Assembly: GCF_900111365.1 (NCBI RefSeq) | Contig: NZ_FOGZ01000001.1 | Coordinates: forward strand, 186,001 to 250,000 | DNA: 64,000 nucleotides | Direction: 5' to 3' | Source of the DNA: Propionibacterium cyclohexanicum | GTDB taxonomy: Bacteria; Actinomycetota; Actinomycetes; Propionibacteriales; Propionibacteriaceae | Shown here: piece after piece, positions 52,572 to 55,109 of the stretch | Layout of the letters: every line of letters begins with the position of its first letter | Position numbering within the stretch: position 1 is the stretch's first letter | Made by a program: the position numbers and the translations under genes | The notes under the pieces: model-generated | Seen by the model: only the letters and a program-made list of their open reading frames with translations | Database searches by the model: none | Told to the model about the DNA's origin: nothing

Positions 52572-52620
52572 GTGGATGGATCCTGCATGCGCTGCGCCAC
52601 CCAGACGAGGAGTCGCCCAG

Positions 52621-53436
52621 ATGGACATCGCCCTTGGGCAGCTGAAGCTCGCTGCCGACGCTGAGACCAATCTTGCCCAGATCACCGCTTCGGCCGAACA
52701 GGCGGCGGCCTCGGGAGCGCGCATGCTCGTGGTGCCGGAGGGACTCACGGCGCGCGACAGCGCGGACCCCTATGCTGGCGCGAACCACCCCCAGTCCCTC
52801 GACGGGCCGCTTGTCAGCGGTATCCGGGCAGTGAGCGCACGCCTCGGCCTGGCAATCGCCGGGAGCCTGCACACACCTGTCCCCGGCGCGCGGGTGGCCA
52901 ACACCGGATTCATTGTCGATGGCGGTGAGCTGGTGGCCTGCTACCGGAAGATCCATCTCTACGACGCCTTCTCGGCCCGCGAATCGCGCCATGTGCAGCC
53001 CGGGGTCGACGAGCCGCCGGTGGTCGAGATCGACGGACTGCCGATCGGCCTCATGATCTGCTACGACCTGCGCTTCCCCGAGACGGCCCGCAGCCTGGCA
53101 GTGCGCGGGGCCCAGCTCATCGTGATGCCCGCGGCGTGGGCAGCCGGTCCGCTCAAGGAGATGCACTGGCAGGTGCTCGCCATGGCACGCGCTGTGGAGA
53201 ATACCGTCTACCTGGCCGCCTGCTCGGAGGTGAGCTCGGTGAACATCGGGCGCAGCCTGCTCGTCGATCCGCTGGGGGTCGTCGTGGCGGCTGCGGGGAC
53301 TGGCCCTGAGCTGCTCATCGGCCACGTCGATCCCGGTGCGCTGGCCCGGGCGCGCACTGTGCTCCCGGTGCTCGCCAATCGCGAGTATCGGGACCCGCAG
53401 CTTCGGTCGGCCGGCGGTCATCGCGGGCCTGCCTGA
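52621..53436 (+). CDS. Nitrilase-superfamily carbon-nitrogen hydrolase
   Basis: The 271-residue protein has the Glu-Lys-Cys triad of the family: VVPEGLTAR, CYRKIHLYDAFSARES and LMICYDLRFPETAR. It most resembles the Nit1/Nit2 branch (deaminated-glutathione or omega-amidase-like enzymes), so a small amide such as 2-oxo-amide is a reasonable but unproved substrate. The ATG at 52621 follows GAGGAG (52603-52608) with a long spacing of about 12 bases and gives the family start DIALGQLKL. The open frame before it is not conserved. Confidence 0.88.
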   Translation: MDIALGQLKLAADAETNLAQITASAEQAAASGARMLVVPEGLTARDSADPYAGANHPQSLDGPLVSGIRAVSARLGLAIAGSLHTPVPGARVANTGFIVDGGELVACYRKIHLYDAFSARESRHVQPGVDEPPVVEIDGLPIGLMICYDLRFPETARSLAVRGAQLIVMPAAWAAGPLKEMHWQVLAMARAVENTVYLAACSEVSSVNIGRSLLVDPLGVVVAAAGTGPELLIGHVDPGALARARTVLPVLANREYRDPQLRSAGGHRGPA

Positions 53437-53474: not shown

Positions 53475-53504
53475 TTCGGCATGGGCTCGCTCACCGGCTA
53501 GTAT
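53475..53504 (+). promoter_or_regulatory. Promoter of infC-rpmI-rplT
   Basis: TTCGGC (53475-53480) and TAGTAT (53499-53504) are separated by 18 bases. Transcription would start near 53511, about 205 bases before infC. Confidence 0.55.
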
Positions 53505-53510
53505 GGTTGG

Positions 53511-53715
53511 GTTGTTCGGCGCCCATGGCGCTCGACCCCGCAAGTGGAGGCCTGGGCTTCCCACCTGTTCCCGATCGCTCGGGCAGGTCAGTGATGTTGC
53601 CGTCACCCGGCCTGGCCGGTGATGGCTGCCTCGGCGTTCCCAGGCCTTCGTCCACGGGCGAAGGCCTTTTCCATGTGCGCGGGCGACACTGACGGCTACA
53701 TCATTGGAGGACACA
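53511..53715 (+). promoter_or_regulatory. infC leader with terminator/antiterminator structure
   Basis: AGGCCTTCG (53642-53650) pairs with CGAAGGCCT (53659-53667) and is followed by T's (53667-53670), an intrinsic terminator inside the leader. The upstream AGGCCTGGG (53548-53556) is complementary to CCCAGGCCT (53639-53647), which overlaps the terminator's left arm, so the two helices exclude each other. Another helix (about 53602-53622) lies between. This fits attenuation of the infC operon, as known for L20/IF3 leaders elsewhere. Whether it matches a catalogued leader family was not checked. AGGCCT is itself a palindrome present three times, so alternative pairings exist. Confidence 0.6.
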
Positions 53716-54399
53716 ATCAGCAACGAACCCCGTATCAACGAGCGGATCCATGTTCCCGAGGTCCGGCTCGTCGGGCCCAACGGCGAACAGATCGGCATCG
53801 TCCGCGTCGAGCAGGCGATGCAGCTTGCCCGTGAGCACGATCTCGACCTGGTCGAGGTTGCGGCAGAGGCACGCCCCCCGGTGTGCAAACTCATGGACTA
53901 CGGCAAGTTCAAGTACGAGAGCGCCCAGAAGGAACGCGAGTCCCGGCGCAACCAGTCGAACACCGTTCTCAAGGAAATGAAGCTCCGTCCCAAGATCGAC
54001 GACCACGACTACGAGACGAAGAAGGGCCATGTCGTGCGCTTCTTGCGCGGTGGCGACAAGGTCAAGGTCACGATCATGTTCCGTGGCCGAGAGCAGTCGC
54101 GTCCGGAACTGGGACACAATCTGCTGCGCAAGCTGGCCGAGGACGTGAAGGACGACGGCTTCGTGGAGCAGTCACCCAAGCTCGAGGGCCGCAACATGCA
54201 CATGGTGGTGGCACCGACGCGCAAGAAGAGCGAGGCCCGTGCCGGCCAGGCGCAGGAGAGGGCCCGCCGACAGGCCCAGCGTGAGGCCGATGCGGCTATC
54301 GACAAGGCGGCAGAGGCTCAGCTGCGCGAGGCGGCCAAGGGCCAGCCGAAGAAGAAGCGGGGTCCCTCCGACAACCTGGACTCCGATATCGACCTGTAG
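53716..54399 (+). CDS. infC: Translation initiation factor IF-3
   Basis: IF-3 keeps the 30S subunit free and checks the start codon. The protein begins [19 protein letters not shown] and has the N domain, linker ([19 protein letters not shown]) and C domain with [19 protein letters not shown] basic, Ala-rich C-terminal tail of about 50 residues is longer than in E. coli. The likely start is ATC at 53716: GGAGG (53706-53710) lies five bases before it and no ATG, GTG or TTG fits. A TTG at 53704 is in frame but overlaps the ribosome-binding site. Rare AUU/AUC starts in infC allow autoregulation in other bacteria. Confidence 0.92.
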
Positions 54400-54495: not shown

Positions 54496-54690
54496 GTGCC
54501 CAAGATGAAGACGCATTCCGGTGCGAAGAAGCGGTTCCGCGTCACCGGGACGGGCAAGCTCATGCACGCTCGCGCCGGCAAGGCGCATCTGAACGAGCAC
54601 AAGCCCAGCCGGCGTACCCGGCGGCTGTCCGTCGATGCGGTGCTCTCACCGGCCGACGCCAAGAAGGCCCGCAAGCTGCTCGGCAAGTGA
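54496..54690 (+). CDS. rpmI: 50S ribosomal protein L35
   Basis: The 64-residue protein has the L35 pattern ([20 protein letters not shown], then [14 protein letters not shown]). GTG at 54496 is chosen because it gives the standard N-terminus and GGAG lies six bases upstream. It lies between infC and rplT in the conserved operon. Confidence 0.95.
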
Positions 54691-54737: not shown

Positions 54738-55109
54738 ATGGCACGCGTCAAGCGCGCAGTGAACGCGAAGAAGAAGCGTCGCGAAATGATGGAGAGCGTC
54801 GCGGGTTACCGCGGACAGCGCTCCCGCCTCTATCGCAAGGCCAAGGAACAGTCACTGCACTCGGGCGTCTACGCCTTCCGTGACCGTCGCGCCAAGAAGG
54901 GTGACTTCCGCGCACTGTGGATCCAGCGCATCAATGCTGCGGCCCGTGAGCAGGGAATCACGTACAACCGCTTCATCTACGGCCTCAAGGCAGCGCAGGT
55001 CGAGGTGGATCGCAAGATCCTCGCCGATCTCGCCGTCACCGACCCCGCCGCCTTCGCGGCCCTGGTCGAGATTGCCAAGCAGAATCAGTCGGCCCCTCAG
55101 GCTGCCTGA
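54738..55109 (+). CDS. rplT: 50S ribosomal protein L20
   Basis: The 123-residue protein has the L20 signature ([16 protein letters not shown], then [16 protein letters not shown] and [17 protein letters not shown]). The ATG follows AGGAG. L20 is the autoregulator of the infC operon in other bacteria, which makes it the natural candidate to act on the leader at 53511-53715. Confidence 0.96.

Follow-up and report, generated by a model that had tools for sequence, protein, structure and literature searches.

The infC-rpmI-rplT operon is regulated by ribosomal protein L20 in both Escherichia coli and Bacillus subtilis (PMC10931766, PMC6097659). In E. coli, L20 exerts autogenous control over rpmI-rplT, and infC is separately under IF3; the rpmI-rplT operators act on translation through a long-range pseudoknot rather than through a leader terminator (PMC10931766). 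The L20_leader RNA (RF00558), described as restricted to Firmicutes (PMC6097659), stands 5' of infC-rpmI-rplT or of rpmI-rplT. It possesses a competing terminator and antiterminator, with the binding site at a two-helix junction 5' of the switch.

How the IF3-L35-L20 operon is autogenously controlled has been established for E. coli and Bacillus; in the literature we found, it has not been for actinobacteria, the phylum to which Streptomyces and the tubercle bacillus belong. For Streptomyces it is accepted that IF3 regulates itself through the AUC start codon of infC (PMC5472188). Among open-licence papers we found no description of a switch in the actinobacterial infC leader. Here we describe such an RNA, its two competing folds, and a gene-order argument about the protein it senses. 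Sequence comparison strongly supports the view that the infC leader has the anatomy of an attenuator with competing terminator and antiterminator. It also offers a clear case of one operon placed under unrelated RNAs in different phyla.

The window analysed is a stretch of 64,000 nucleotides from Propionibacterium cyclohexanicum; all features given below lie on its forward strand. The infC gene, encoding IF3 (53716-54399), starts with AUC behind a Shine-Dalgarno sequence, UGGAGGA (53705-53711). It is followed by rpmI, for bL35, with a GUG start (54496-54690), assigned from sequence and tblastn co-location, and by rplT, for bL20, the proposed autogenous regulator (54738-55109), likewise placed by tblastn co-location. 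Transcription of the operon is predicted to start at about 53511, because a putative -10 element, TAGTAT, lies at 53499-53504. This box is absent from the output of a generic sigma-70 scan; a TANNNT box occurs at the equivalent position in the leaders of relatives, and in Streptomyces parvulus the Rfam family Scr1601 begins just past a -10-like box, TAACCT.

The leader opens with P0 (53516-53535), an accessory and variable hairpin seen in local folding. Hairpins are common at this position among relatives, and we found no covariation supporting P0 in their leaders. The switch itself begins with arm A (53542-53556), identified by conservation and pairing tests, which consists of a conserved AAG-U-GGAG sequence and the loop of P1; its AAG and GGAG positions are near-invariant among 35 leaders. 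Arm A can pair either with arm B, giving P1, or with the 5' arm of the terminator, giving the antiterminator, so that P1 and the antiterminator compete for it. P1 spans 53544-53562 (5' strand 53544-53551, 3' strand 53556-53562, U53545 bulged) and rests on folding and covariation. Adjoining it is P2 (ACCUG...CAGGU, 53563-53588), assigned from conservation and a covariance model. The P1-P2 junction is the most conserved part of the leader and is likely to be where a protein binds. Beyond this core, a stable predicted hairpin of unconserved sequence, P3 (53599-53626), separates it from the terminator. The GGAGG within arm A (53546-53550) resembles the infC Shine-Dalgarno sequence, with no start codon behind it.

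A first-pass annotation had pointed to a T-tailed hairpin at 53642-53670, 45 bases before infC, and to the complementarity of its left arm with 53548-53556. Both are borne out. The hairpin, AGGCCUUCGUC-CACG-GGCGAAGGCCU, is 26 nt long (53642-53667) with 11 base pairs, and its U-tail runs from 53668 to 53670, ahead of the AUC at 53716; sequence, folding and covariation mark it as an intrinsic terminator. The tail is short, UUUU including the last base of the stem, and falls under the rule of at least five T used in our terminator scan, whereas the terminators of relatives often have 5-6 U. The annotation also suggested that other terminators in the window lack T-tracts; under the same rule a 17-kb scan found nine terminator-like sites against 4.8 expected. 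The match of 53548-53556 with 53639-53647 is exact, and the complementarity extends to 12 pairs, two of them G-U, between 53545-53556 and 53639-53650. The antiterminator 3' strand therefore takes up almost all of the terminator's 5' arm.

Folding predictions fit this competition. The predicted fold of the 205-nt leader is more stable than those of dinucleotide shuffles (z -3.35). If folding is limited to the first 60-odd nucleotides, arm A pairs with 53556-53562 to form P1, and P2 adjoins it; in folds of the window RNA the antiterminator is predicted for transcripts ending at 53651 and 53660 and the terminator for one ending at 53672. With either helix enforced on 53511-53690, the antiterminator and terminator states come to -90.7 and -94.1 kcal/mol, a calculated difference of about 3 kcal/mol that should be near enough for switching. 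Of 226 leaders, 166 gave a reliable call of a T-tailed terminator. Several of the misses are Streptomyces leaders in which the algorithm picked another hairpin. The f74 rpmI leaders and several Acidimicrobiia-like leaders have no clear T-tailed terminator; in such leaders, chiefly outside the class, control may be translational or Rho-dependent.

How widely is this leader distributed? The comparison drew on eighty named actinobacterial infC loci, genomes of the same genus and family, and further loci from the class and phylum. The leader recurs throughout these sets, apart from the exceptions described below. The core has the consensus AAGYGGAG-loop-CUCCCACCYG-P2-CRGGU. A strict pattern, AAGYGGAG-loop-CUCCCACC-P2, occurs in 97% of 229 infC upstream regions, whereas its frequency in Markov shuffles is 0.1% and in reverse strands 0%; the sample of 229 was partly selected by the model, but loci fetched by the infC protein alone carry the motif too. 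R1, a covariance model of the P1-P2 core, has one good match in the genome of P. cyclohexanicum (window 53540-53590, 45.6 bits; next best 18.8). Within the class it finds sites in 245 of 395 genomes and 94 of 124 genera, and a genome with a match nearly always has just one. Fourteen class genomes without an R1 match were sampled: 13 have the motif before infC, and the fourteenth has a diverged form recognized by eye. Essentially every Actinomycetes infC locus that we fetched has the core 5' of infC, and other classes of the phylum have it as well. Of 14 fetched matches from beyond the class, 13 lie 5' of infC or of rpmI-rplT. On this sequence evidence the leader is an RNA class spread over the actinobacterial phylum, Streptomyces and mycobacteria included.

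The remaining phylum match (L249) was rejected as a chance hit inside a transporter coding region, as were two weak second copies of the core (L174 and L176, 26-29 bits), also within coding regions; R1 matches below about 30 bits therefore need gene context. Upstream of infC, three distant AT-rich loci (L268, L272 and L282) show by eye a diverged P1, AAGUNG...CNCACC, with other stem sequences. What the whole phylum has in common may be just AAGU-stem-CACC-P2-GGGU. In several distant members of the phylum, for example L274 and L275, no leader motif was seen.

The two competing pairings had been proposed as mutually exclusive, with covariation in relatives as the test, and compensatory changes are indeed found. 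In 102 model-aligned matches, 99.8% of cells in P1 are paired, with changes on both sides at four of its five pairs. Across 17 gap-poor leaders, mostly of the same family, pairing holds in 100% of cells for P1 and in 92.3% for the antiterminator, against at most 51% for slid versions of the latter. In these 17 leaders the terminator is paired in 100% of cells, with both-side changes at six of ten pairs. For P2 the evidence from R1 comes from the four outer pairs only, the inner part of the helix being one column out in the structure supplied to the model.

The strongest test requires no alignment. Terminators were located independently of arm A, and the pairing of each arm A with the terminator of its own leader was compared with that of shuffled partners. 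In 106 distinct actinobacterial leaders the mean energy for own partners is -15.06 kcal/mol, against -12.67 (sd 0.24) for shuffled ones, and none of 20,000 shuffles reached the own-partner value. The effect appears in the Propionibacteriaceae alone (z -5.6) and in the remainder (z -6.5). Pairing between arm A and the terminator is more than chance. For 72% of leaders, no other window between core and terminator pairs with arm A as well as the terminator arm does. The same pairing is made by different sequences in different lineages: GCCUGAC/GUCAGGC in Propionibacteriaceae, CCAAG/CUUGG in another group of that family and GGCUCC/GGAGCC in Streptomyces. A further candidate, a helix closing P0-P1-P2 by pairing the 5' end with the 3' flank of P2, did no better than shuffles (z -1.5) and was rejected.

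Is this RNA a form of the Firmicutes L20_leader? The two share their operon position and a competing terminator and antiterminator, and the site predicted here, the P1-P2 junction, would likewise present L20 with two adjoining helices 5' of the switch. They differ in having no detectable similarity in sequence or by covariance model. RF00558 gave no match in the genome of P. cyclohexanicum at E<=1, none in the window leader at E<=10 and none at the gathering threshold in 14 relatives. As judged from these searches, the actinobacterial leader is analogous, and as far as tested not homologous, to L20_leader. Nor did T-box or metabolite riboswitches appear: at Rfam gathering thresholds the whole window yields one tRNA only, and at E<=10 the leader matches only Scr1601 and one unrelated sRNA model.

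Scr1601 (RF02830) provides an experimental trace of the same RNA. The model matches the S. parvulus leader over its full length (192.8 bits), from immediately after the TAACCT box to the terminator U-tract. Because Scr1601 runs from promoter to U-tract, its detection amounts in effect to an earlier sighting of a prematurely terminated transcript. On the window leader it scores 20.7 bits, below its gathering threshold of 100. R1 identifies the homologous position before infC in both the window and locus L013 (1744-1794, 52.5 bits), and Scr1601 is homologous as the Streptomyces infC leader with the same P1-P2 core; it differs in its listing as an sRNA, which describes neither a function nor a switch, and in having a model specific to Streptomyces. 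In L013, Scr1601 covers exactly the infC leader (1700-1915), from transcription start to U-tract. Were Scr1601 and its relatives primarily trans-acting sRNAs, as the Rfam filing implies, the terminator would merely end an independent sRNA gene. We consider this highly improbable: the RNA always lies in cis, about 65 nt upstream of the first gene of the operon, and its antiterminator covaries. Furthermore, data from S. ambofaciens place scr1601 in a UTR and call it a possible misclassification (PMC8388888). The entry looks like a misfiled attenuator, and we reinterpret this Rfam small RNA as an attenuated leader.

A second trace comes from Mycobacterium tuberculosis, in which the infC 5' UTR is 326 nt long and the ratio of UTR to coding reads is 2.6 in growing and 4.9 in stationary cells (PMC3207917). 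These ratios are what an attenuator would give, and the leader described here offers a ready explanation for so abundant a UTR. We presume the two to be homologous: the M. tuberculosis UTR is long and abundant relative to the coding sequence, and mycobacterial-type loci (L157 and L162) can be compared. Arnvig et al. (2011), on the other hand, proposed homology with the infA 5' UTR and described no structure or switch (PMC3207917). A leader shared by infA and infC was not borne out by our search, since R1 found one site each, and no second core, in the mycobacteria-like genomes searched.

Which protein does the leader sense? The first-pass annotation had named L20, the level of IF3 or translation of the leader itself. 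Gene order favours the first. Downstream of infC, rpmI and rplT are present in 135 of the 136 loci with enough sequence. The exception is genome G665, in which infC lies elsewhere, with a UUG start, no leader and no rpmI or rplT behind it, and rpmI-rplT stands behind the motif AAGUGGAAGUGGCCGCUUCCCACC, where R1 gives a weak match (15.9 bits) at the right position. In about 16 genomes of three families in the same deep order, the motif precedes rpmI by 167-335 nt and infC does not intervene (leaders L286, L288-L290, L292, L294-L296, L300, L302-L306, L308 and L311). In genomes of the order that retain infC in the operon (L298 and L307), R1 matches upstream of infC instead. A terminator is retained in several leaders of the rpmI-only lineage, and its 5' arm (GGCCGCU) is complementary to arm A (AGCGGCC). 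Because this complementarity does not vary within the lineage, the shuffle test is uninformative there.

Where infC has moved away, the leader has remained at rpmI-rplT, and it therefore belongs to those genes; this argues for L20, their regulator in E. coli and B. subtilis, or for L35. This comparison, in which one relocated infC (that of G665) was inspected, favours L20 or L35 over IF3. Sensing of IF3, or of free 30S subunits carrying it, by the same attenuator might be suspected from the position of the leader 5' of infC in nearly all loci and from the Shine-Dalgarno-like GGAGG in arm A, which could bind a 30S subunit. We regard it as unlikely, given that the order of G665 keeps the leader at rpmI-rplT without infC, that the relocated infC has no leader, and that a separate feedback by IF3 already operates at the AUC start (PMC5472188). 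That codon begins infC in nearly all of the 229 loci examined. In five Acidimicrobiia-like loci (L239, L243, L247, L248 and L250) infC apparently starts with AUA, another codon that IF3 discriminates against; the core is present there, with no obvious T-tailed terminator. L35, alone or together with L20, fits the gene order too, in that the leader stays with rpmI as well as rplT. This reading is quite unlikely, however, as L35 is not known as an autogenous regulator, whereas L20 is, in two phyla.

Translation of the leader is likewise disfavoured. In that scheme a small upstream reading frame, read by the ribosome, would choose between the structures. Actinobacteria do use leader peptides elsewhere, and this leader contains small reading frames, but on both strands, as any high-GC leader would. 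Arm A and its loop together measure 8-21 nt, in most leaders 9-15 and in one 31, and these lengths fall in all frames, so that across leaders we found no conserved short frame running through the switch; the GGAGG of arm A has no conserved start codon behind it, and the only ATG frame (53503) begins upstream of the predicted transcription start. Control by a leader peptide is thus very improbable.

Sequence and covariation support the three helices, their mutual exclusion, the terminator, the distribution of the leader and its tie to rpmI-rplT. The competing, covarying terminator and antiterminator uphold the annotation's reading of regulated read-through into infC-rpmI-rplT. It is probable, on this comparative evidence, that L20 attenuates transcription of its own operon, as in Bacillus but with an unrelated RNA, and that IF3 is set separately. 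Transcription would start near 53511, and P1 and P2 would fold first. As the polymerase advances, arm A would leave P1 and pair with 53639-53650, and the resulting antiterminator would block the terminator so that the operon is transcribed. We infer that excess L20 would bind the conserved P1-P2 junction and stabilize P1, keeping arm A within it; 53642-53652 would then be free, the terminator would form, and transcription in the cell would stop at about 53670. The level of IF3 would be set at translation, through the AUC start codon.

Known L20 sites mimic 23S rRNA. In the 23S rRNA of P. cyclohexanicum, no stretch resembles arm B, CUCCCACC, within one mismatch. AAGUGG and AAGCGG strings do occur there, but with no matching partner strand, and mimicry on that basis was rejected. 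We lean towards the view that this phylum-wide leader, unrelated in sequence to known L20 sites, attenuates rpmI-rplT through a ligand that reads the tandem P1-P2 junction without evident 23S mimicry, which would make it a third independently evolved L20 operator, or the first for L35.

The gene 5' of infC in the window (52576-53436) encodes a carbon-nitrogen hydrolase of nitrilase-like type; in other actinobacteria a DUF1844-like gene or a divergent lysX occupies this spot, and the leader is kept whatever the upstream neighbour.
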